64,000 nucleotides of DNA from Bordetella parapertussis (GTDB lineage Bacteria > Pseudomonadota > Gammaproteobacteria > Burkholderiales > JACQAP01): assembly GCA_945900965.1 (NCBI GenBank), contig CAMDKM010000004.1:1-64000 (forward strand), in the 5' to 3' direction. Below the pieces are notes generated by a model that was not told the origin of the DNA, did not search any database, and saw only the letters and a program-made list of their open reading frames with translations. Below, piece after piece: positions 49,916 to 64,000 of the stretch. The translations under genes and the position numbers were made by a program. Position 1 is the stretch's first letter, and every line of letters starts with the position of its first letter.

Positions 49916-52895
<2,980 letters not shown>

Positions 52896-52955
52896 TCGCA
52901 GTGACATTGATTTGAAAGCAAGGCGCCGGTCTGTCATCGGGCAATTCCGGGTCAG

Positions 52956-52975
52956 GTCGGCGCCGTTGCGCCGAC
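52956..52975. terminator. Hairpin between katG and the lipid operon
   Basis: GTCGGCGC-CGTT-GCGCCGAC: eight perfect pairs with a four-base loop between the convergent katG and cfa1 stops. No T-run follows on either strand, so it could be a transcript-end hairpin without intrinsic termination. Confidence 0.5.
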
Positions 52976-53027
52976 AGTCATGAGCAAGGCCGGAATGTAT
53001 CGATGACAAAAGTGCCGAACACTTGTT

Positions 53028-54269
53028 TCAGTTTGTACGCTCCAGCAGGATATGGACATCGTACAAGGCGCGTTCCGCGAAGCCCGCTTCGCAATAACAA
53101 AGGTAAAATTCCCACATACGGATAAAACTCTCCGGCAGTCCAAGCTGCCGAACGCCCTCCAGATTGGATAAAAAATTCCTCCGCCAATGCGCCAGCGTGG
53201 TGGCGTAGTGAGGGCCAATGTCGTGCAGGGAAACAATGTCCAGATGGCCGGAATCTGAAACTGCCTTTGCGAGTGCGCTCACCGACGGAATACAGCATCC
53301 CGGGAAAATATACCTTTTGATGAAATCCACTTCGCGGCGCGCCTGCTCGTAACGGCGCTCCGTGATGGTGATTGCCTGGAGTAACATTATCCCGCCCGGT
53401 GCCAATCGCTCGGCGCAGCAACGGAAGAACTCGCCGTAATACTGGTGGCCCACCGCTTCGATCATCTCGATGGAGACGATTTTGTCGTAGGTTCCGCTCA
53501 GATCCCGGTAATCCTTGAGCAACACTGTTACCCGATCCTGAAGTCCGGCGGCGCGGATGCGTTCGAGCGCCAGCGCGTGCTGGTTGGGTGAGATGGTGGT
53601 CGTCGTCACACGGCAGCCGAAACGGCCGGCGGCATGTAGCGCGAATCCTCCCCAGCCACTGCCAATTTCCATAACGTGGTCCTGCGGCCCCAGTTGCAAT
53701 TTTCGACAGACCGCTTCAAGTTTGGCCGTGGAAGCTTCCGCGAGGGTCATCTCCGGATTTTCGAACAGGGCGCAGGAATACATCAGAGTGGGATCGAGAA
53801 ACAGGCGGAAGAAGTCATTACCCAGATCGTAGTGCGCCGAAATGTTGCGCCGGCTTCCGGCGCGCGTATTTCGGTGTAACCAATGCGCGGCCGTGCGCAG
53901 CGGGGCGGACAATAATGCGAAACCCGATTCCATTGCATCCGCGGCCGCGCGATTGCGGAGCAGAAACCGCATAAGTGCGGTGAGATCGTTCGTTCTCCAG
54001 TGTCCGAGCATATAGGATTCGCCCGCGCCGACCGACCCACCAAAGGCCAGTTCAACATAGAAGGCTGGGTCGTCCACCATGACATGTATCTCGACTTCCC
54101 CGGCGGGACTCCCGAAGGCAAACTCGCCCCCCGGTTCATGAAGCACAAGTCTGCCATCGCGCAGGCCGCCCATTTGCGTGTGGACGAGGGTGCGCGCGAG
54201 CCTCGCCAGCCAGCCCGGCCGGGGGCGCGGCCGGGACAATTCGACCAGTGTAGAATCGTTCATGTTCAT
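53028..54269 (-). CDS. Cyclopropane-fatty-acyl-phospholipid synthase-family methyltransferase (lipid operon, gene 10)
   Basis: 413 aa from ATG 54269, overlapping the DUF1365 stop (ATGA). The N-terminal 120 residues are the Cfa-specific domain; then ISAHYDLGNDFFRLFLDP and the SAM motif VMEIGSGWGGFALHAA; then VSIEMIEAVGHQYYGEFF and FIKRYIFPGCCIPS. This matches the Cfa family members found in RpoE/ChrR or LitR clusters, such as UfaM-type methyltransferases that add a methyl group to a vaccenoyl chain. Whether it makes cyclopropane, methylated or furan-precursor chains is not decided by sequence. Confidence 0.87.
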   Translation of the reverse strand: MNMNDSTLVELSRPRPRPGWLARLARTLVHTQMGGLRDGRLVLHEPGGEFAFGSPAGEVEIHVMVDDPAFYVELAFGGSVGAGESYMLGHWRTNDLTALMRFLLRNRAAADAMESGFALLSAPLRTAAHWLHRNTRAGSRRNISAHYDLGNDFFRLFLDPTLMYSCALFENPEMTLAEASTAKLEAVCRKLQLGPQDHVMEIGSGWGGFALHAAGRFGCRVTTTTISPNQHALALERIRAAGLQDRVTVLLKDYRDLSGTYDKIVSIEMIEAVGHQYYGEFFRCCAERLAPGGIMLLQAITITERRYEQARREVDFIKRYIFPGCCIPSVSALAKAVSDSGHLDIVSLHDIGPHYATTLAHWRRNFLSNLEGVRQLGLPESFIRMWEFYLCYCEAGFAERALYDVHILLERTN

Positions 54270-54994
54270 GGATGGACGTAAAACGGTGTGCGTCGCACCC
54301 ACAATCTGAAGGCTTGCCAGTAGATCGCAGTGACGACTTGCACGGTCATGAACGGAAAACGCAGGAGTGCGCCGGCAAGGGAGGCAGTGTCGATCTCGTG
54401 TCTTTCAAGACAGAGCGTGGCATCAAAAATCTTGCCGCGTTCATCATGATTTTCCATGTGGACCGAGAGACTTTCGGCGGGCGTGTTGAAGCGCCAATCG
54501 TATTGCAACGCCATGGGCATGAAGGGCGAAACGTGAAAGGCCTTGCCAAAGCAAAAATGCAATCCTCGGTCGCGCGCAGGAAGAATGTAGGTGTGGCGTT
54601 CCTTCCAGGGTGTATTGGTAATCTCGACGACCATGTTTTCAATGGTGGTCCCCGACGGGTCGTAGCAATAATAAAAGCTCACCGGGTTGAAACAGTGACC
54701 GAACAGCCTCAAGTGGGTCAGCAAGCGGATCGGCCCTTCCGGTCTGACGCCAGTCTCCAGCTTCACCAGACGGCGCACTGCTTCGTCCAGCGCCACGTCG
54801 GAATTGCCAAGGTAATCCGCTCGCCTCAACCATGCCAACGCCGGCCCGCGCGTTGACCATAACCAGCGGTCACGGAATACTTCGTCCAGTTCGTTCAAGT
54901 CGAGGAAGGCCATGAACAGGCGGTAACGGAACTGGTGGGGGCGCGGCGAGAATCGCCGGTGGCGCAATGAGCCGGAGTACAGGCAACTATTCAT
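54266..54994 (-). CDS. DUF1365 family protein (lipid operon, gene 9)
   Basis: 242 aa from ATG 54994; a GTG at 55006 is an alternative. The start MNSCLYSGSLRHRRFSPRPH and FGHCFNPVSFYYCYDPSG are hallmarks of DUF1365 proteins, as is YDWRFNTPAESLSVHMENHD. DUF1365 genes nearly always sit next to a Cfa-family gene and an FAD oxidoreductase, as here, and are needed for the same lipid product. The biochemical role is not settled. It overlaps cfa1 by four bases downstream and follows the FAD gene after about 69 bases. Confidence 0.85.
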   Translation of the reverse strand: MNSCLYSGSLRHRRFSPRPHQFRYRLFMAFLDLNELDEVFRDRWLWSTRGPALAWLRRADYLGNSDVALDEAVRRLVKLETGVRPEGPIRLLTHLRLFGHCFNPVSFYYCYDPSGTTIENMVVEITNTPWKERHTYILPARDRGLHFCFGKAFHVSPFMPMALQYDWRFNTPAESLSVHMENHDERGKIFDATLCLERHEIDTASLAGALLRFPFMTVQVVTAIYWQAFRLWVRRTPFYVHP

Positions 54995-55063
54995 CGGACG
55001 CGGCACTTGATTGTTGACCCGAACAATCCGGATTTGTGGCGGACATTTTTGACAATCGCGATC

Positions 55064-56341
55064 TCAGGCTCTTTGCCGCACGAGTCGGCCCATGGAAGCG
55101 TGCTCCGAGTGGAAGTGTTTCAGCGCCTCCAGTGCGCTTGCCACGCCGTCCTCGTGAAAACCGTTGCTCCAGTAGGCGCCGCAGAAATAGGTATTTCGCC
55201 CGCGATTGAGTTCCGTCTGCCGCGCCTGTGCCGCCACCCCGGCAGGGGTAAAAAGAGGATGGTGATAAACGATTCGTCTAATGACTTTTACGGGATCGAT
55301 TTCGTCATCCCGATTGAGCGTGACCAGAAAGGGCTCGGGCGCATCCAGCCCCTGCAGGATGTTCATGTTGTAGGTCAGCGCCACGCGCTGTCCGCCTCGC
55401 CCCGACTTATGATAGTTCCACGCTGCCCAGGCAAGGCGCTTTCGCGGCAGCATCCGGGTGTCCGTGTGCAGTACCGCCTGGTTTTCCTGGTAAGGAATCG
55501 CGCTCAGCACCTTGCTTTCCAGCGCACTGGGGTCCGTGAGCAGACGTAGTGCCTGGTCGCTGTGGCATGCAAGAAACACTGCGTCGAACCGCTCGGCGTC
55601 CCGGGCGAGCGACTTGACCAAAACGCCGCCGGGAAAACGGCGGACCCATTCCACTGGACAATTCAGGCGGATTCGGTTTCGAAAAGGGTGGGTCAGCTTC
55701 TCGACGTAACGCGCCGACCCGCCTTGAATAACTCGCCATGTTGGGCGCTGGTTTACCGAAAGCATGCCGTGGTTCTGCAGGAAACCGACAAAAAAGCGCG
55801 CGGGAAAATCCATCATGGCCCGCGGGTCAGTGGACCAGATCGCCGCGCCCATTGGCACAATGTACCGATCGACAAAGGCCTTTCCGTAGTTGCCGAGATC
55901 GAGGAATGCACCCAGGCCAATTTCCTTTCCCGGGCGGCTCAGCAACTCCGGCGCTTCGCGGTTGAACCGTAATATGTCGCGGACCATGCCAAGAAACGAA
56001 GGCCGCAGCAGATTGAACCGTTGGGCAAATAGCGTGTTGAGGGTGGTGCCGTTGTACTCCAGTCTGCAGGTGTCGTCGCGAACCGAAAAGCTCATGGTGC
56101 TGTCCTGCGATGCGACTCCCAGTTCGTCGAGCAGTTTTGTGAAATTCGGGTATGTCCAGTCGTTGAATACGATAAATCCGGTATCCACGGCGTAGTTCCG
56201 GCCGGCTTGCTCTACTACATGCGTGTGTGAATGCCCGCCGATGTGGCCGGCTGCCTCGAAAACGGTGATGTCATGGTTTCGACACAGATGATAGGCAGCC
56301 ACGTTACCCGCGATGCCGGACCCGACGATGGCGATTTTCAT
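55064..56341 (-). CDS. FAD-dependent oxidoreductase, UfaD-like candidate (lipid operon, gene 8)
   Basis: 425 aa from ATG 56341, overlapping the desaturase stop by four bases. The N-terminal nucleotide motif IAIVGSGIAGNVAAYHLCRN and the amine-oxidase-type second half with ENQAVLHTDTRMLPRKRLAW and GAYWSNGFHEDGVASALEAL place it in the family of FAD proteins paired with DUF1365 and Cfa. In Rhodobacter furan fatty acid synthesis I recall an FAD-containing UfaD that desaturates a methylated acyl chain; this is the best candidate here. That link is by family memory and gene order. Confidence 0.83.
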   Translation of the reverse strand: MKIAIVGSGIAGNVAAYHLCRNHDITVFEAAGHIGGHSHTHVVEQAGRNYAVDTGFIVFNDWTYPNFTKLLDELGVASQDSTMSFSVRDDTCRLEYNGTTLNTLFAQRFNLLRPSFLGMVRDILRFNREAPELLSRPGKEIGLGAFLDLGNYGKAFVDRYIVPMGAAIWSTDPRAMMDFPARFFVGFLQNHGMLSVNQRPTWRVIQGGSARYVEKLTHPFRNRIRLNCPVEWVRRFPGGVLVKSLARDAERFDAVFLACHSDQALRLLTDPSALESKVLSAIPYQENQAVLHTDTRMLPRKRLAWAAWNYHKSGRGGQRVALTYNMNILQGLDAPEPFLVTLNRDDEIDPVKVIRRIVYHHPLFTPAGVAAQARQTELNRGRNTYFCGAYWSNGFHEDGVASALEALKHFHSEHASMGRLVRQRA

Positions 56342-57303
56342 GCATGGCCCCGGATAAGTCGCCGGGCGTCGCGCACCGGGAAGGGGACCTCTTTCAGCTC
56401 CCAGATAATGCCGAGCACGGCAAGCAGCCTTAGTACATAGTAGGTGAGATCTATTTCCCACCAATAGAATCCCTGACGCGCCGCGCCAGGATAGTGATGA
56501 TGATTATTGTGCCAGCCTTCGCCGAAGGTCAGCAGCGCCAGCCAAAGGCTGTTGCGCGAGGCGTCGCGCGTGGCGTAACGCCGCCGCCCGAGGCGATGAG
56601 CCAGTGAATTGATGGTGAAGGTGGCATGGTAGAGGGCGACGGTGGAAAAACAAAAGCCCCATACCACGAGTTGAGGCCCGCTGGTGCCCAAACCGGGTGC
56701 AAGAGACTCCAGTACGGCCCCGAGAAAATAGAGCGCAAAAAACAGCAAGGCGGGAACCAGGGCGTCGTATCGATCGAGAAAGCGCAGTTCCGGGAAGCGC
56801 GTCAGCTTCAGCACCCGTTCCGTACGGGTCGGGAAATTTTCGCGCGCCATGAACCACCCGACATGACTCCATAGAAAACCGTGCTGGAGCGACGAGTGAC
56901 TGTCCAGGGGCGTGTCGGCATGCGCGTGGTGATGGCGATGTTGGGAGGCCCACCAGAGGGGGCCGCGCTGCACGCCGGAGGCGCCAAGCAGCGCGAAAAT
57001 AAACTGCGCAGCCCGCGAAGTCTGGAACGCGTTGTGCGAAAAATAGCGATGATAAAAACCGGTGATCGCGAACATGCGCAAGGCATATAAGGCCACCGCC
57101 ACCACAACGGCGGTCATGCTGGTGCCCACCCAAACTACGGCGAAACAACCCAGATGCAGGCCGACAAACGGCAGCAGCCGCGGCCAGTCTATGTGGTGCT
57201 TATGCCCGATAGTGGCCCGGCGCTCTGCCGCGGCACTGTCGAACCAGCAGGCAACACTGTTCCAGAGCCTCGCGGGAGCGGAAGCACTACTCTTCAATTC
57301 CAT
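56338..57303 (-). CDS. Acyl-CoA/phospholipid delta-9-type desaturase (lipid operon, gene 7)
   Basis: 321 aa, four transmembrane helices. The three histidine boxes are HRYFSH (about 85-90), HRHHHAHAD (about 122-130) and HNNHHHYPG (about 261-269), typical of the SCD/OLE1-type desaturases that introduce a double bond at carbon 9. It overlaps the lipocalin by 10 bases and the FAD gene by four. The double bond it makes could be the substrate of the Cfa-family methyltransferases encoded in the same operon. This order is an inference. Confidence 0.9.
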   Translation of the reverse strand: MELKSSASAPARLWNSVACWFDSAAAERRATIGHKHHIDWPRLLPFVGLHLGCFAVVWVGTSMTAVVVAVALYALRMFAITGFYHRYFSHNAFQTSRAAQFIFALLGASGVQRGPLWWASQHRHHHAHADTPLDSHSSLQHGFLWSHVGWFMARENFPTRTERVLKLTRFPELRFLDRYDALVPALLFFALYFLGAVLESLAPGLGTSGPQLVVWGFCFSTVALYHATFTINSLAHRLGRRRYATRDASRNSLWLALLTFGEGWHNNHHHYPGAARQGFYWWEIDLTYYVLRLLAVLGIIWELKEVPFPVRDARRLIRGHA

Positions 57304-57827
57304 TGTTGCGGCACTCTTTGAACTTTCGCCAGGTCATACCCCTGCTCTCCTACAAAGCGAAGCAATCGCTGGTAGTCCCCCTCGGGAATAGTGGGCGTGC
57401 GGGCCATGATCCAGACATAGTCACGACGCTCGCGAGCAATCACGGTCAGGTTGTAGTCCTCGCTGAGATAACTTATCCGGTAGTCGGCCTTGATCGGCCA
57501 GATGAACTGCATACCCCACAGGGCGTTCGAATCGCGATCCCTTACATAGCCGCGTGGGTTGTAGCGCTTTGTCTTCCCGTCAAAAGCACCGGCGCGAAAG
57601 GTGAAAGTTGTTGCAATCGTGCCGTCGCTTTCCAGACGGTAGGACTCCACCGCGTTGTGGGCACCCTTTTCGATGAACGTCGGAATGTTGGCGATCACGT
57701 ACCAGTCACCCATGAAACGTTCGAGGTCGACCTTCGCGACGGTGGCAACAGGCTTCATTGGGGTACTCTGACAACCCACCAGCATCGCCACCGCAATGCC
57801 AGATGCCAACAGTCGTTTGTAGTCCAT
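57294..57827 (-). CDS. blc: Bacterial lipocalin lipoprotein (Blc-like; lipid operon, gene 6)
   Basis: 177 aa from ATG 57827 with GAGGAC upstream. Lipobox LVGC around residue 18 predicts a lipoprotein, probably at the outer membrane. Lipocalin fold with VDLERFMGDWYVIANIPTFI (the GxW motif) and YDLAKVQRVPQ at the C-terminus. Lipocalins bind lipophilic ligands such as lysophospholipids or fatty acids and help membrane maintenance. It lies within the operon and overlaps the desaturase, supporting a role in handling the lipid product. Confidence 0.88.
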   Translation of the reverse strand: MDYKRLLASGIAVAMLVGCQSTPMKPVATVAKVDLERFMGDWYVIANIPTFIEKGAHNAVESYRLESDGTIATTFTFRAGAFDGKTKRYNPRGYVRDRDSNALWGMQFIWPIKADYRISYLSEDYNLTVIARERRDYVWIMARTPTIPEGDYQRLLRFVGEQGYDLAKVQRVPQQWN

Positions 57828-57854
57828 CTCGTCCGTGTCCTCAAAAATGCCTGC

Positions 57855-58508
57855 TCATTTCAATTCATAACGAAGGCTGCGGCCGCGATCGACCGTCGAT
57901 TGCAGAGCGAGCCAGGTCCGGTCGGCCGAGTACCACAGATCGATCGGGAACTTGGGGCCGCTGATCCGATAGCGGGTGGCCTTCACCAGCACGCCACGTA
58001 CCGTGAGCTTCTCTTCGCCGAGATCGGAAATTCGGACCGGCGTGTATTCGCCGGTCTGGACGTTGAGCAGCCGTGCCTGGCCCAGGATTTCCGGATTCCA
58101 GTAAGCGAAACTCATCACGCAGCCGTCATGGACTTCACGGCTGCTCGGAGAGGCGATGGCGAGGCGACCGGCATCCTGGGTTGCGACGACCTCGGAGCGT
58201 TTGCCCCCGTCAACGGTGCGCGCAACCACCGCTTCAAGGCAATCGTCGCGCCAGCGTTCGGTCGCATCGTGTGTGTAACGATAGGCGTTGATGAACCATA
58301 ACTTCACGTTGAATCGAGCCTCGCTGGTCAACTCCCGTTCCGCGCCCAGTTCGCGCAGGGCGAAGCGGTGATGGCCAATCGGCTTGTCGTCGAGCAAGAC
58401 CCGGAATTCCCAATCACGCATGGCGGCTGCGGACTGGGAAGCCGCCATTGGCAGGAGTGCCATACACAGGGCAAGCTGCAGCGATTTTCCAAATGGCCAG
58501 CGTTTCAT
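57855..58508 (-). CDS. Secreted protein of unknown function (DUF6134-like; lipid operon, gene 5)
   Basis: 217 aa from ATG 58508, overlapping the DUF1295 stop (ATGA). A signal peptide (about 1-28, LALCMALLPMAASQSAAA) implies a periplasmic location. The mature region is beta-rich: MRDWEFRVLLDDKPIGHHRF, FAYWNPEILGQARLLNVQTG and FPIDLWYSADRTWLALQSTV. I recall this family as DUF6134 next to Cfa/DUF1295 genes, but the assignment is tentative. No catalytic residues can be named. Confidence 0.75.
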   Translation of the reverse strand: MKRWPFGKSLQLALCMALLPMAASQSAAAMRDWEFRVLLDDKPIGHHRFALRELGAERELTSEARFNVKLWFINAYRYTHDATERWRDDCLEAVVARTVDGGKRSEVVATQDAGRLAIASPSSREVHDGCVMSFAYWNPEILGQARLLNVQTGEYTPVRISDLGEEKLTVRGVLVKATRYRISGPKFPIDLWYSADRTWLALQSTVDRGRSLRYELK

Positions 58509-59290
58509 TTGCGGGAAAGACCAGGGAAAAACGCGTTGGTGCGGGCGACGTAATTGCGGTATTCCGGGCGGCGCAGCCCGATATCCTTCTCCAGAAGGGT
58601 TACGCCCGAGACCTTCAGCAGCAAAACGGACATGAGCAGCGGGGACACGATGGCCCACCATGCTCCGGCCGAAAGCGCCACAAGGTAGAAACCCCACCAG
58701 ATGCAAAACTCGCCGAAATAGTTGGGGTGCCGCGTGTAACGCCAGAGCCCATAGTCAAGAACCTTGGCGCGATTGGCTGCGTTAGCCCGAAAGCGCGCCA
58801 GTTGCAGGTCGCCTACGCTCTCAAATATGAATCCAGCGATAAATATCGCGATGCCCAGAGTGTCCACCCAACCCAGAGGGCGCGGACTGGCGATGGCAGC
58901 AACCAGCGGGGTCGATACGATCCATGCCAGCACACCCTGCAACGCGAAAACAAGATAAAGGCTCTTCCATTCGAAATGCGGCTGGTTGCGGGCGCGTATC
59001 TCCCGATAGCGGTGATCCTCGCCTTGGCCCCAATTACGCCAGGTGATATAGCCGGCCAGCCGAATTGCCCATAGCGCGGCCAATGCCAAAACAATAAGCG
59101 CACGCGGCCCCGTCTCGGGCAACCGTACCATTGAGGCAATGCCGGGCAAGATGATCAAAATTGACCAGATGCTGTCCACAATGCTCACGTTTCTCAGCAC
59201 GAGGCTGAGAAGCCAGGTCGCTGAAGCCAAAACGAGTATCGCGGCAAAGCCGGTTGCGGAAACGAGGAGAAGGGCTTGAGCATCGAACAT
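58505..59290 (-). CDS. DUF1295 membrane protein (steroid 5-alpha-reductase-like; lipid operon, gene 4)
   Basis: 261 aa, about six to seven transmembrane segments. Signature residues: VDSIWSILIILPGIAS, RYREIRARNQ, and the C-terminal motif LWRYTRHPNYFGEFCIWWGF with LLEKDIGLRRPEYRNYVART. DUF1295 proteins share the fold of isoprenylcysteine methyltransferases and steroid 5-alpha reductases, and occur in Cfa/DUF1365 clusters. The reaction is not known. Located 12 bases after the DUF2878 gene. Confidence 0.85.
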   Translation of the reverse strand: MFDAQALLLVSATGFAAILVLASATWLLSLVLRNVSIVDSIWSILIILPGIASMVRLPETGPRALIVLALAALWAIRLAGYITWRNWGQGEDHRYREIRARNQPHFEWKSLYLVFALQGVLAWIVSTPLVAAIASPRPLGWVDTLGIAIFIAGFIFESVGDLQLARFRANAANRAKVLDYGLWRYTRHPNYFGEFCIWWGFYLVALSAGAWWAIVSPLLMSVLLLKVSGVTLLEKDIGLRRPEYRNYVARTNAFFPGLSRK

Positions 59291-59302
59291 GGTCCGACCT
59301 AA

Positions 59303-59869
59303 TCAAGGGGTGGCGTTTACGCCGTTGAAACGCCGCGCCAGGACAAGCAGGAGCGGAGTCATTACGCCCCAACCGATGGCCAGCGCCAACAATGCAGGCA
59401 GGACATCCGGCAAAACCAATGCTCCCAGGCGCATGCCGGCCCAATACGAAAGCGGGCCGGCGGCGGCGCCAAGCAGCGCCGCGACGACCCAGCGTCCTTG
59501 GAGCCAGCGTAGCGAAACGTTGAGCGTGGTCGCGAACAATACCCAGAGCGCGAGAATCCATTGCGGCGCCGCATGTTCAAGAGGAAAGCCGGATTCGAAT
59601 GACACCAGCCCTAGATTGACCAGCAAACTGTCCCAAGCCAATCCGATGGCAAGTGCCATGGCAATCAGCTTTAATTCCTGGCCAGGGCGTGCGACGCGTA
59701 ACATGTGGAATGCGACGACGGCTGCCGCAATCGCCGTCCCGGTCCAGGGCCGGCCCCAGGCCGCCCCGAGTACGCAGGCAAACCAGCCGATCTGAAAGGC
59801 GATGAAGTTGACTATGACGTTGGCGCTGCCGACGTCGTGCCGTGCGCCGATGATGGATACCTGGCTCAT
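59303..59869 (-). CDS. DUF2878 membrane protein (lipid operon, gene 3)
   Basis: 188 aa from ATG 59869, overlapping the methyltransferase stop (ATGA). Five to six hydrophobic helices, with [40 protein letters not shown] and [20 protein letters not shown]-like segments. DUF2878 proteins occur in the same gene neighbourhoods as DUF1295, DUF3833 and Cfa genes. I cannot assign a reaction. Confidence 0.82.
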
Positions 59870-60909
59870 CGGCGCGGCTCGAACAGGTAGTGGCTCACCC
59901 ACCATTCCTGACCGTTTCGATAGCGAAACAGTTCGGCGCAGGCCATGAAAAAAATTCTCCAGCGCTGCAGCCAGAGCGCCGCGGATCTCCCGTAGGTTTC
60001 CTCCAGAACCGAATGCACCCGCACTTGTCGCGAGTCGAGATTGCTCAGCCAGGCATTGGCGGTGCGTGCGTAGTGCGTGCCGACCCAGCGCCAGCGGTGC
60101 ATGAGTTGCAGGTCGTCTTGAAAGCGCAGCGCAAGATCGTGGCTGGGCATCATGCCACCGGAGAAAAAATGATGACTCATCCAGTCGCTTTCATCACGGG
60201 GCACAAACGCATAAGGCGTCGCACGATGCACAAATACGTGCATAAAGAACTTCCCATCGTCCTTCAGCCACCCGCGTACACGCTTGAAGGCCTGCGGCCA
60301 GTTGCGCAGGTGTTCGAACATTTCGACCGAAACGATGCGGTCGTAGCGACGGCCGGCATCGAATTGGTTCATGTCGCAAGTGATGACCCGAACGTTGTTC
60401 AGGCCTTGTCGCGCTGCTTCGTCCATGATGTAGGCCCGTTGCGAACCCGAATTGGAAACCGCCGTGATACGGCTCGCCGGATAATGCCTGGCCATCCACA
60501 AGGTCAGCGAACCCCAACCGCAGCCCAGTTCAAGCACATCCTGCCCGTTGCCGATTTCTGCACGCTCGCAAGTCGCGAGCAGGGCCGCCGCTTCCGCCTG
60601 GTCGAGTGTTCTGACGCCGGGCGTCCACCAGCATGAGCTGTATTTGCGCCGCGCACCGAGCACTTCGGCAAAAAAGTCAGCCGGTACCTCGTAATGTTGT
60701 TCATTGGCTTTTTCCGGCACAAGCGCGATCGGGGCGGCACGCAGGGAGGCGACAAACCTATCGGTGTGACGGGCAGCCCTGGAATCATCAAGGTTGATTT
60801 CGGACAGGCGTTCTTTCAGAAGCCGTCTTATGCCCGCGCGAATCGCCAAGTCGGGCAGTAAACCCTTCTCGGCCCAGCGAATTGCCGTTGTCGCCAAAGA
60901 TTCAGACAT
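59866..60909 (-). CDS. Cfa-family SAM-dependent methyltransferase, second copy (lipid operon, gene 2)
   Basis: 347 aa. SAM motif [20 protein letters not shown], then [36 protein letters not shown] and the C-terminal KEY-type segment [19 protein letters not shown]. It differs from cfa1: the N-terminal lipid domain is shorter and it resembles coclaurine N-methyltransferase-like members, so the two enzymes are likely to modify different lipid intermediates. Its ATG overlaps the regulator stop by eight bases. The presence of two methyltransferases fits a pathway with two methyl additions, such as the dimethyl furan acids. Confidence 0.85.
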
Positions 60910-61843
60910 CGGTTTTCGCCTCGCGCCACGCCTGAATTGCAGAGGGAATCCCTTCGAGCGAGGCCATCATGGTGATGCCAGGCAGAACTTTGCGCGCACG
61001 TTCCCACAATTTCCCGCCCGCCCACAATTCGACTTTGCGAGGCAACCGATTGCGCAGATCGGCAAGGCCTTCACGCGCGACATTAACAACCATCGCCTGG
61101 CTAAAGGACAACCCCACGATATCCACGCGGTGCGCCCGTGCAGCCTCCACGATATCCCAGGCCGGCGTCTGTACACCAAGTGAAATACACTGGGCTCCTT
61201 CTGCGGATAGGCAAGCTTCCGCCATCAGCAACCCCAGTTTGTGTTGCTCGCCCGCCAATGTGGTGAGCAAAATGCGTGGCCCCTGTCCGGCATGGGCCAT
61301 TGACCCAATGGCCTGTCTTAACAGATGTTGCATTTGCTCGGCGTAAAGGTGCTCCTCAAAAATCTGGATGCGGCCCTCCAACCAGGCGCTGCCGACCAGT
61401 TCGTTAAGCGGAGCAACCACCTCAATTACGAAGCGCGGCAAGCCGAGACGCATGAGCGCGTGCTGAAGGAGCTGACGCAACTCCGTAACCTGATGCAACT
61501 TGAGCAGGCGCAGTGCTTCGTCCGAAACAAGGGACTCCCCATCGGGCCGACGGGCACTTTCCGGTAGTGTCTTTATTCGGGCGTTGAGCTCGTCCATGGA
61601 CTGCGCCACGACATCGCCGGGACGCAGGCCGCTGTCCATCAAGCGGCGAATGACGCGAAGCTTCTCCAGTTGGTCGGGAGGATAGACCCGCTCGCCCTTA
61701 AGGCCGCGGGTCGGCGTCGGAAACCCGTAGCGTCGTTCCCAGACGCGCAAAGTGTCCTTCGATAGACCCGTGTCCCTTTCGACGGTGCCGATATTTGCCA
61801 AAGTAATCTCAGTGCGTCGGATGTTCTTGTTTGTCGTGGACAT
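60902..61843 (-). CDS. MerR-family regulator with B12-binding domain, CarH/LitR-type photoreceptor candidate (lipid operon, gene 1)
   Basis: 313 aa from ATG 61843. Residues about 12-80: MerR HTH ([30 protein letters not shown]). Residues about 105-180: the four-helix cap domain with W154, E164 and H165 in [13 protein letters not shown], the exact W-x9-EH motif that marks light-responsive CarH proteins. Residues 186-310: the cobalamin-binding Rossmann domain with GEQHKLG, the D/E-x-H-x-x-G motif; H201 is the lower axial ligand. CarH represses in the dark as a tetramer with adenosylcobalamin and releases DNA in light. It heads the lipid operon; the promoter carries a palindrome at the -35 box. 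Confidence 0.88.
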
Positions 61844-61865
61844 GGTGGACGAAATGAGCTTGAAT

Positions 61866-61907
61866 AAGGGCAATAATAAATACGCAACGCCATTTTGTCC
61901 AGGACAA
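61866..61907 (-). promoter_or_regulatory. Predicted sigma70 promoter and overlapping palindromic operator of the lipid operon
   Basis: On the minus strand, -35 TGGACA (61896-61901), a 17-bp spacer and -10 TATTAT (61873-61878), each one mismatch from consensus. The -35 lies inside the perfect palindrome TTGTCC-T-GGACAA (61895-61907). A further TGTCCA half-site is at 61939-61944 upstream, and another overlaps the start codon region. A regulator bound to the palindrome would block RNA polymerase, consistent with autorepression in the dark. Confidence 0.65.
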
Positions 61908-62026
61908 CTGGTGGCTTCGAAATTTAATAATGGTGTTCTGTCCAGCAAATCAGAGACTTGGAGCCGCGGGCGGTAGAGGAGCCAGGTAGCTGCCGGTCGA
62001 TTCACCAATTGGAGCGCGGGAATCCA

Positions 62027-62571
62027 ATGATCATGTCCCGGCAACATTTCAAATCCAAAGTCAGTAGGGCGGCATTTCTGGCTTGTTTACTGGTGAATCC
62101 CGCTCACAGCGTAGCGGATGAAGTGGTTTTGGAAACCGGAGGCTTGTTGAGCCCCTATTTTTTCTCAGCGACGGCAATCGTCCCAATGCCGCCGAGGGAT
62201 GGGATCTCGGGATCACACCGATCCGGCGGGCGGAATATTGGCGGCACGAGCAAGCGGGCTGGAAGTTCGGGATGACGCTGCTCCCTTTCTATTTGAAGAC
62301 AAACCAACGCCTGTCGAACGACTTGGTCTCGCAAGACAGGACATTTCGCAAGGATGATCAGGTGGACGTGGAATACCAATTCCATAACGTGCGCGGCACC
62401 CCGTCCTACCGACTTCATTACGACGAAGTCGCGACGATTCGTCTCGGCGGGTCGTTGATCCTCCGATACGCTGAGATCAATTTCTCCGATCAAAGCCAGA
62501 CAGCACGGAGCTCGGGCTTGATCGCGTTTCCCCTGGTGCATTGGGAGTATCAGAGACTCATGAGCCTATGA
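62027..62571 (+). pseudogene. Frameshifted exported protein of unknown family
   Basis: From ATG 62027 (a second ATG at 62033) the frame gives a signal peptide, SRAAFLACLLVNPAHSVADE, then GLLSPYFFS. In the T-run at 62158-62163 the frame must change to give LSDGNRPNAAEGWDLGITPI and RAEYWRHEQAGWKFGMTLLP, continuing with DVEYQFHNVRGTPSYRLHYD to RLMSL at 62571. The T-run has six bases where seven (or four) would restore the frame. The sequence looks like an outer-membrane or periplasmic beta-rich protein, but I do not recognise the family. It is divergent from the CarH gene. The 3' part runs directly into the araC fragment. Confidence 0.6.
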
Positions 62572-62804
62572 CCTATTTGGCCGATTGGAGACTCGAACTC
62601 GCCGCCGATTCGCTGCGCACGACAAGCCGCGGCGTATTACAGATCGCCGGGGAGGTTGGCTACGATTCCGAGGCGGCCTTTAACCGGGCATTCAAGCGCC
62701 GCTTCGATTTACCTCCGGCGCGGTATCGCAAGGATTGGCAGATGAGCGCGCGGGGTAGTGTGGATACTGGCCTCGGTCACGGCGAAACTGCGCCGGCAAA
62801 GTAA
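62541..62804 (+). pseudogene. 3' fragment of an AraC-family regulator
   Basis: From about 62553 the frame reads HEPMTYLADWRLELAADSLR, then GVLQIAGEVGYDSEAAFNRA and FKRRFDLPPARYRK. This is the second HTH of AraC-family proteins of the cupin_6 type (PMxYLxxWRMxLA ... VGYxSEAAFNRAFKR). The N-terminal sensor half and the first HTH helix are missing, and the reading frame opens in the end of the previous gene. It is a truncated remnant joined by a deletion. The region 62805-62964 after it holds nothing recognisable. Confidence 0.8.
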
Positions 62805-62964
62805 GCGGCGGACATCCTTCTGAAAATTGTGCCGATGGTCCTCGGTCAATAGGAGTGGGGCCGACCGCCATCGATGGACGACTCTGGAGTACTCTGGACG
62901 AAAGAGCCGCGCGTTGGTCGCGACGCCATCGTTAACCAAGCCTCAACGCGGGTTTGTCACCGAA

Positions 62965-63717
62965 TCATTCAACGTCTCTCGAATAACGTTCGTGCAACTC
63001 GGCTGGCCGAACTGCACGCTTCCTCATTCGAATATTGAGGAATTCGACCGCCACGGCGAACGCCATGGAGAAGTACACATAACCCTTTGGAATATGGTGA
63101 TCGAAGCCATCGGCGATCAGGACAACGCCGATCACCAGCAGGAAGGCGAGGGCAAGCATCTTGATGGTGGGGTGCGCCGAGACGACGCGTCCGATGCCTC
63201 CGGCAAAGGCCATCATCAACAGCACCGAGACAATGACGGCGGCAATCATGATTTCCACCTGATCCACCAGGCCCACGGCGGTAATGATCGAATCAAAGGA
63301 AAACACGATGTCGATGATTGCAATTTGAAGAATAACCGCAGACATGGTCGCGTGGACCATTGCGGATGCCTCGCCTTTTTCTCCTTCCAGCAGCTGATGA
63401 ATCTCCTTGGTACTTTTCCAGAGCAGAAAAACGCCGCCGCCGATGAGGATGAGGTCGCGACCGGATATGTCGTTGGCGAGTATCGAAAAGAGGGGTTGGG
63501 TCAGCCCAACGATCCAGGCAAGCAGGAACAAAAGGCCTATGCGCATGAACATGGCGAAAAACAGGCCAATCCGCCGTGCAAAGTTGCGGCGCGCCTCTGG
63601 AAGTTTGTCGACCAGGATGGAAATAAAAATAATATTGTCCACCCCCAGCACCAACTCAAGGGCCGTCAGCGTGAGAAATGCGACCCACATCTGCGGGTCG
63701 GCCATCAGTTCAATCAT
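62965..63717 (-). CDS. TerC family protein, YgdQ-like
   Basis: 250 aa with seven transmembrane helices. The first helix region ALELVLGVDNIIFISILVDK and IIDIVFSFDSIITAVGLVDQ carry the two conserved acidic residues of TerC proteins (V-D-N and F-D-S). The loop between helices 4 and 5 (LWKSTKEIHQLLEGEKGEAS) is typical of YgdQ-type members, which are shorter than the terC gene at 42581. The role is probably Mn or other divalent-cation handling, inferred from the family. ATG 63717. It is the third TerC-family locus of the window, one of them dead. Confidence 0.88.
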   Translation of the reverse strand: MIELMADPQMWVAFLTLTALELVLGVDNIIFISILVDKLPEARRNFARRIGLFFAMFMRIGLLFLLAWIVGLTQPLFSILANDISGRDLILIGGGVFLLWKSTKEIHQLLEGEKGEASAMVHATMSAVILQIAIIDIVFSFDSIITAVGLVDQVEIMIAAVIVSVLLMMAFAGGIGRVVSAHPTIKMLALAFLLVIGVVLIADGFDHHIPKGYVYFSMAFAVAVEFLNIRMRKRAVRPAELHERYSRDVE

Positions 63718-64000
63718 GTGAACTCTCCAGAAAGGAATCAGTTACTTTTAAAATGCTGGATTTCCGTTTTCACGGGAATGACATTCGGGCCTTTACCCAG
63801 TGTTTCTTTGGCAACCATATTGCACGAAATAAGGATTTCCCAACTTTAATGCAACTGCGGGTGTCTGTGAACGGGGAGCTGCCTGAATGCGACTACGTGC
63901 CACCGCCCGGGCCGTTACTCGCAGACAACGCAGCCTCTTTACCGCGCATTCGAGTTATACCGCGTAGCGAAGTCTGCACGAAATCATCCACGTAGGTATA
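63718..64000. other. Right edge, no gene recognised
   Basis: The 283 bases upstream of the YgdQ-like gene contain short frames with no coding signature and no convincing Mn riboswitch. The leader of the minus-strand gene and its promoter are expected here. The window ends inside this stretch. Confidence 0.5.

Follow-up and report, generated by a model that had tools for sequence, protein, structure and literature searches.

The 64,000-nucleotide window analyzed here (positions 1 to 64,000 of contig CAMDKM010000004.1, assembly GCA_945900965.1) carries a block of ten minus-strand open reading frames, running from the ATG of a MerR-family regulator gene at 61843 to position 53028, and we consider it likely that these form a dark-repressed operon controlled by a CarH-type regulator and devoted to the synthesis of dimethyl furan fatty acids. 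The ten tightly packed genes of the original prediction are found, the widest gap within the operon being the 57 bp between the genes for the flavin adenine dinucleotide (FAD) oxidoreductase and the DUF1365 protein. All four of the predicted ATGA overlaps can be read in the sequence (59866-59869, 58505-58508, 56338-56341, and 54266-54269), and there are two further overlaps, one of 8 bp between the genes for the regulator and the FufM-like methyltransferase (60902-60909) and one of 10 bp between the lipocalin and desaturase genes (57294-57303). The predicted block of 53028 to 61907 is right at its 53028 boundary, but the genes end at 61843, and 61907 is the outer end of a palindrome in the promoter. 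The Pfam domains, which in operon order are MerR_1 and B12-binding, CMAS (weak), DUF2878, DUF1295, DUF6134, Lipocalin_2, FA_desaturase, Amino_oxidase, DUF1365, and CMAS, agree with the gene content proposed earlier, with the "secreted protein" now recognized as DUF6134.

The regulator and its candidate operator

The first gene (60902 to 61843, minus strand, as are all features of the operon) codes for a CarH/LitR-type regulator with both a MerR DNA-binding domain and a B12-binding domain as identified by Pfam. Its alignment to Thermus CarH scores 90.7 bits, and it has both the Wx9EH motif that lies over the adenosyl group and the lower axial histidine within ExHxxG (GEQHKLG), the motifs that define CarH homologues (PMC8156234). 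The genome searched (3.88 Mb, 97% complete) codes for a cobalamin adenosyltransferase, so adenosylcobalamin (AdoCbl) can be made. By its best hits, this genome falls among the betaproteobacteria. The ATG at 61843 is most likely the start of the regulator gene, because a predicted promoter is positioned at 61901-61873.

A 13-bp palindrome, TTGTCCTGGACAA, at 61895 to 61907 is a candidate CarH operator. The pattern TTGTCYDRGACAA has a single match in the genome, upstream of the regulator, and the reversed word used as a control also matches at one place. The right half of the palindrome contains TGGACA, the -35 box of a predicted sigma-70 promoter (61873 to 61901), with TATTAT located 17 bp downstream; this promoter is called from its consensus match, which at 10 of 12 positions is the best within 52700-62400. 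This layout, with the palindrome placed over the -35 box, fits a blocking of RNA polymerase in the dark. Among regulators of the same clade, 11 of 16 have a palindrome site upstream with no more than one mismatch, compared with 0 of 8 in the other clade. In one locus of that other clade (L082), repeated TTGTACAA and TTATACAA words upstream of the MerR gene suggest a different operator.

The same furan pathway could be controlled without light as the signal, either because the regulator senses B12 status or because sigma-E/ChrR mainly drives the operon. Related operons are under RpoE/ChrR control in Rhodobacter and Shewanella, the genome has several Cupin_7 (ChrR-domain) genes, and repression by AdoCbl would require B12 as well as darkness; however, the light-switch residues (Wx9EH and the lower histidine) are intact, and there is no sigma-E/ChrR promoter (TGATC-N16-20-CGTA) upstream of the operon beyond what chance would provide, making this explanation quite improbable. 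The sole match to the sigma-E/ChrR motif in the window (62467-62492) is inside another gene remnant and is no more than expected by chance, and control through it was rejected. No Rfam RNA elements, such as a B12 riboswitch, are found in 50000-64000 at gathering scores.

Probable genes for furan ring formation

By family and by gene order, the FAD oxidoreductase corresponds to UfaD, the DUF1365 protein to UfaO, and the last Cfa to UfaM of Rhodopseudomonas palustris, where three consecutive genes, RPA2571-2570-2569, are ufaD-ufaO-ufaM (PMC7380195). In Rhodobacter sphaeroides and R. palustris, UfaM adds a methyl group to 18:1 chains, the product is desaturated by UfaD, and the DUF1365 protein UfaO then forms the furan with O2 (PMC7380195). 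The putative UfaD-type FAD-dependent acyl desaturase (55064 to 56341) contains an Amino_oxidase domain and is encoded directly before the DUF1365 and ufaM genes, and the DUF1365 protein (54266 to 55006; 274.8 bits) is, as judged from family and position, the ring-closing UfaO that inserts oxygen. The furan reading offered earlier through UfaM and UfaD thus stands by family and gene order, to which this role of DUF1365, not stated there, is now added. The structural model of UfaO is confident (predicted local distance difference test [pLDDT], 94.9), but the fold matches listed are only weak ones to calycin-like barrels (nitrobindin and spirocyclases; best Z score, 7.0), from which no cofactor site could be assigned.

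The product of the last gene (53028 to 54269) is a CMAS-family protein, and its active site distinguishes it from cyclopropane synthases. The catalytic bicarbonate ligands of Escherichia coli Cfa are Glu239, His266, and Tyr317 (PMC11387697), and the corresponding residues here are Glu, Gln, and Tyr, with Ala at the position of His240 following Glu239. The Gln and Ala residues are common to the window's protein and all 53 relatives whose genes adjoin a DUF1365 gene, a signature shared by two deeply separated lineages of the cluster, whereas a separate CMAS gene of the same genome (C1:77103-77915) codes for His at both the His266 and His240 positions. These residues support assignment of the last Cfa to the UfaM type and not to the cyclopropane synthases.

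It is correspondingly very unlikely, and the least probable of the alternatives, that this is an ordinary stress operon without a furan product, making instead cyclopropane or simple methyl-branched fatty acids. Both methyltransferases do match Pfam CMAS, and Halomonas ufaM in E. coli is published to have also yielded some cyclopropane acids, but the UfaM-type protein has another residue in place of one of the Cfa bicarbonate ligands, a separate CMAS gene with intact ligands is available in the genome, and a pathway of this kind would have no use for UfaO. Plain cyclopropane synthesis was rejected on the active-site signature together with the cfa-type gene elsewhere. Methyl branching of the tuberculostearate type was also set aside, as UfaO is present and the FAD protein belongs to the amine-oxidase family, in contrast to the tuberculostearate oxidoreductase.

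A FufM-like second methyltransferase

The other Cfa of the original prediction (59866 to 60909) is predicted to be an S-adenosylmethionine-dependent methyltransferase whose best match among solved structures is coclaurine N-methyltransferase (233.8 bits, versus 96.7 bits for E. coli Cfa), and which shares 27% identity with the UfaM-type enzyme of the operon. By sequence, it is a FufM-like member of a coclaurine N-methyltransferase-like branch. The FufM of R. palustris, the enzyme responsible for dimethyl furan acid, shares 26% identity with UfaM. Arabidopsis LIME1 is presumably a coclaurine-methyltransferase-like protein. R. palustris FufM has 37.87% identity to LIME1 (PMC10940516).

FufM-like genes (E below 1e-50) are present in 16 of 199 Pseudomonadota genomes, and 15 of these 16 also have UfaO, which is found in 67 of the 199 overall (Fisher P = 8e-7 with the window's genome omitted, and 3e-5 when counted by genus). 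This agrees with the published distribution of FufM homologues, which are limited to a subset of the organisms with UfaM, UfaD, and UfaO (PMC7380195). The operon's first methyltransferase gene probably acts last in the pathway.

The light-controlled operon could instead end at a monomethyl furan fatty acid, with the FufM-like enzyme methylating some other substrate, such as an amine head group in the manner of its plant relatives, and constituting with DUF1295 and DUF2878 a different lipid pathway under the same promoter. The closest solved relatives of the enzyme are indeed N-methyltransferases, and fufM and the DUF1295 gene are also paired away from ufaD-ufaO-ufaM at three loci (L244 in genome G150, L254, and L187). 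However, almost every genome with a FufM-like gene also has UfaO, the linkage of FufM-like to ufa genes takes several forms, and the published FufM of this description methylates 9M5-FuFA; we thus regard a monomethyl end product as unlikely, although it is the most credible of the alternatives. The pairing at the three loci suggests in its own right that FufM-like and DUF1295 proteins are a minimal functional unit.

Conservation of the gene set

When named genomes were scanned with the second methyltransferase, 80 loci were identified, mostly in beta- and gammaproteobacteria, of which 39 have ufaD, ufaO, and ufaM homologues within 10 kb. The ufa genes of these 39 usually come after cfa2, DUF2878 (not always present), DUF1295, DUF6134, lipocalin, and, in some, desaturase genes. 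All ten families, in the order and direction of the window, are also present in five loci (L037, L041, L044, L048, and L184). Two loci in more distant genomes (L251 and L252) are rearranged and are without the regulator and DUF6134 but contain, in this order, the desaturase, UfaD, UfaO, UfaM, DUF2878, DUF1295, FufM-like, and lipocalin genes, and the persistence of the set despite rearrangement argues for one function. Other than the regulators, no upstream gene family is common to many loci. One locus (L012), in a metagenome-assembled genome with the seemingly doubtful label Bordetella parapertussis, has the enzyme and accessory genes except for a detectable DUF2878.

The regulator has its own pattern of association. 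Of 40 relatives within the order, 13 have an orthologue with 40 to 55% identity, and 9 of these 13 either adjoin a ufaD-ufaO-ufaM cluster or lie no more than ∼6 kb from one; the clusters are of a different lineage, with enzymes 27 to 49% identical to those here. Near some of these orthologues are genes for what we take, by eye from their sequences, to be FolE2-like and photolyase/cryptochrome-like proteins. The loci with enzymes most like those of the window usually have another B12 regulator (25 to 30% identity). In phylogenetic trees, the window's regulator groups with those of L016 and L037 in a first clade, and its UfaD is in the second gene lineage. There are thus two B12-regulator clades tied to furan-acid genes, and the window pairs the switch of one clade with the enzymes of the other lineage, indicating a re-pairing of switch and pathway; that the two were paired independently is further reason to connect B12 light sensing with furan acids. 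A regulator homologue with 40% identity (L134, genome G040) has lost the residues of both Wx9EH and ExHxxG, yet a copy of the palindrome with one mismatch persists upstream; the furan-acid genes of that genome are elsewhere and not beside it.

Accessory and neighboring genes

Five accessory genes are positioned between the FufM-like gene and ufaD. A DUF2878 membrane protein (59303 to 59869; assigned by Pfam) is encoded next to fufM in many loci. The DUF1295 membrane protein (58505 to 59290) is steroid-5-alpha-reductase-like and a candidate reductase, with Pfam matches to DUF1295 and Steroid_dh and a weak PDB match to 3-oxo-5-alpha-steroid dehydrogenase; in about 75 of the 80 loci its gene adjoins the FufM-like gene or lies close to it, and the two may therefore act together. 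The secreted DUF6134 protein (57855 to 58508) has an AlphaFold model of beta structure (pLDDT, 92.4), for which Foldseek finds matches to DUF1849, VioE, LprG, and LolA with moderate to weak template modeling scores, and the predicted fold thus resembles lipid and lipoprotein carriers. The Blc-type lipocalin (57294 to 57827) matches the Lipocalin_2 and Blc profiles and is a predicted lipoprotein with an LVGC lipobox, and the membrane fatty acid desaturase (56338 to 57303; FA_desaturase) has the histidine boxes HRYFSH, HRHHH, and HNNHHH.

Three further genes of the R. sphaeroides operon are dispensable for furan acid synthesis (PMC7380195), and the accessory genes here may likewise serve transport or turnover. 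We propose tentatively, and with rather more doubt than conviction, that the desaturase, DUF1295, DUF2878, DUF6134, and lipocalin are a previously undescribed extension of the pathway that completes furan lipids, moves them, or exports them to the outer membrane or out of the cell, forming a light-triggered antioxidant coat.

Downstream, a rightward-transcribed catalase-peroxidase gene with two peroxidase domains (50664-52895), another oxidative-stress gene, is convergent with the operon, whose end is ∼130 bp away. Upstream, 62061-62804 (plus strand) contains apparent gene remnants, including an 87-amino-acid stretch with only the C-terminal DNA-binding domain of an AraC protein.

A proposed light-controlled pathway

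The following scheme is the one that we favor. In the dark, the AdoCbl-loaded CarH-type repressor would bind the palindrome over the -35 box and shut down the operon, including its own gene, and light would split the cobalt-carbon bond, releasing the repressor and permitting transcription. UfaM would then methylate 18:1 acyl chains of membrane phospholipids, UfaD would introduce a second double bond, UfaO would insert oxygen from O2 and close the furan ring, and the FufM-like enzyme would add a second methyl group to yield a dimethyl furan fatty acid that scavenges singlet oxygen. Unsaturated acyl chains probably come from the desaturase, DUF6134 and the lipocalin are probably lipid carriers in the envelope, and DUF1295 and DUF2878 would be accessory membrane proteins. 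The B12- and light-controlled route to a modified lipid first proposed for this operon, with two methyltransferases acting in sequence, is thus largely supported by the CarH signature, the conserved candidate operator, the families and order of UfaM, UfaD, and UfaO, and the FufM-like enzyme. The class II LitR of Pseudomonas (PMC9758184) is as much a precedent for light control as the LitR of Photobacterium then cited.

Several points weigh against this scheme. The palindrome differs from the direct-repeat operator of Thermus CarH (11-bp repeats, nAnnTnnACAn), and 5 of the 16 regulators of the same clade are without it at one mismatch or fewer. Base-shuffled sequences have 0.00125 palindrome sites each, but the shuffles keep base composition only, and the pattern was drawn up after the sequences had been viewed, so this figure should be read as a rough indication, not as the outcome of blind testing. 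DNA photolyase/cryptochrome (PF00875), frequent in LitR/CarH regulons, was not found in the 97%-complete genome. Orthology to UfaM, UfaD, UfaO, and FufM is drawn from family, gene order, signature, and co-occurrence and not from characterized reference sequences, and the path from FufM through LIME1 to coclaurine N-methyltransferase joins a published identity to a general family assignment of LIME1. The roles given to the desaturase, lipocalin, DUF6134, DUF1295, and DUF2878 are guesses.

Furan fatty acids are potent antioxidants, and their cellular control and handling are poorly known. If the scheme is correct, a single light-switched operon contains a complete dimethyl furan acid pathway together with accessory genes, and a B12 photoreceptor is tied directly to membrane protection against singlet oxygen. 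It would also provide candidate functions for DUF1295, DUF2878, and DUF6134 and a one-piece cassette for furan lipid production on illumination.

Relationship to known systems

The closest enzymatic counterparts are the UfaM-UfaD-UfaO and FufM systems of R. sphaeroides and R. palustris, which are alike in their families, in the R. palustris ufaD-ufaO-ufaM order, in having a DUF1365 UfaO, and in a distant second methyltransferase (PMC7380195). However, R. palustris FufM has a distant locus tag (RPA0924, compared to RPA2569-2571), whereas here all four genes are in one operon, and the R. sphaeroides ufa genes are controlled by RpoE/ChrR, whereas here a B12 regulator heads the operon (PMC7380195). 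The operon here also includes the desaturase, lipocalin, DUF6134, DUF1295, and DUF2878 genes.

In the class II LitR regulons of Pseudomonas putida and Pseudomonas mendocina, a regulator of the LitR/CarH family likewise adjoins FAD oxidoreductase and ufaM genes, and light induces ufaM 25- to 33-fold (PMC9758184). Class II LitR works with LOV photoreceptors, whereas the B12 motifs are intact here, and those regulons include phrB, folE, and cryB, whereas this genome is without a photolyase (PMC9758184). The CarH proteins of Thermus thermophilus and Bacillus megaterium share the MerR and B12 domains, Wx9EH, the lower axial histidine, and, as predicted here, an operator over the -35 box, but are best known for carotenoid genes and a direct-repeat operator, in contrast to the lipid genes and palindrome described here (PMC8156234).

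Clusters of cfa, FAD, DUF1365, and DUF2878 genes in Vibrio, Shewanella, and Aeromonas overlap in content and belong to sets responsive to light, oxidative stress, or riboflavin, with a cfa gene of Vibrio cholerae induced by blue light (PMC5241685); in the portions of these reports consulted, a FufM-like gene is not mentioned and control is by RpoE/ChrR or other means (PMC5241685, PMC4336711, PMC10012899). We found no literature joining a B12 CarH, FufM, and this accessory set, in a search covering mainly open-access journals. The enzymes and the type of sensor are already known, as is the role of Pseudomonas class II LitR in controlling ufaM by light, and what is apparently new is the presence of FufM and lipid-handling genes within one CarH-headed operon.

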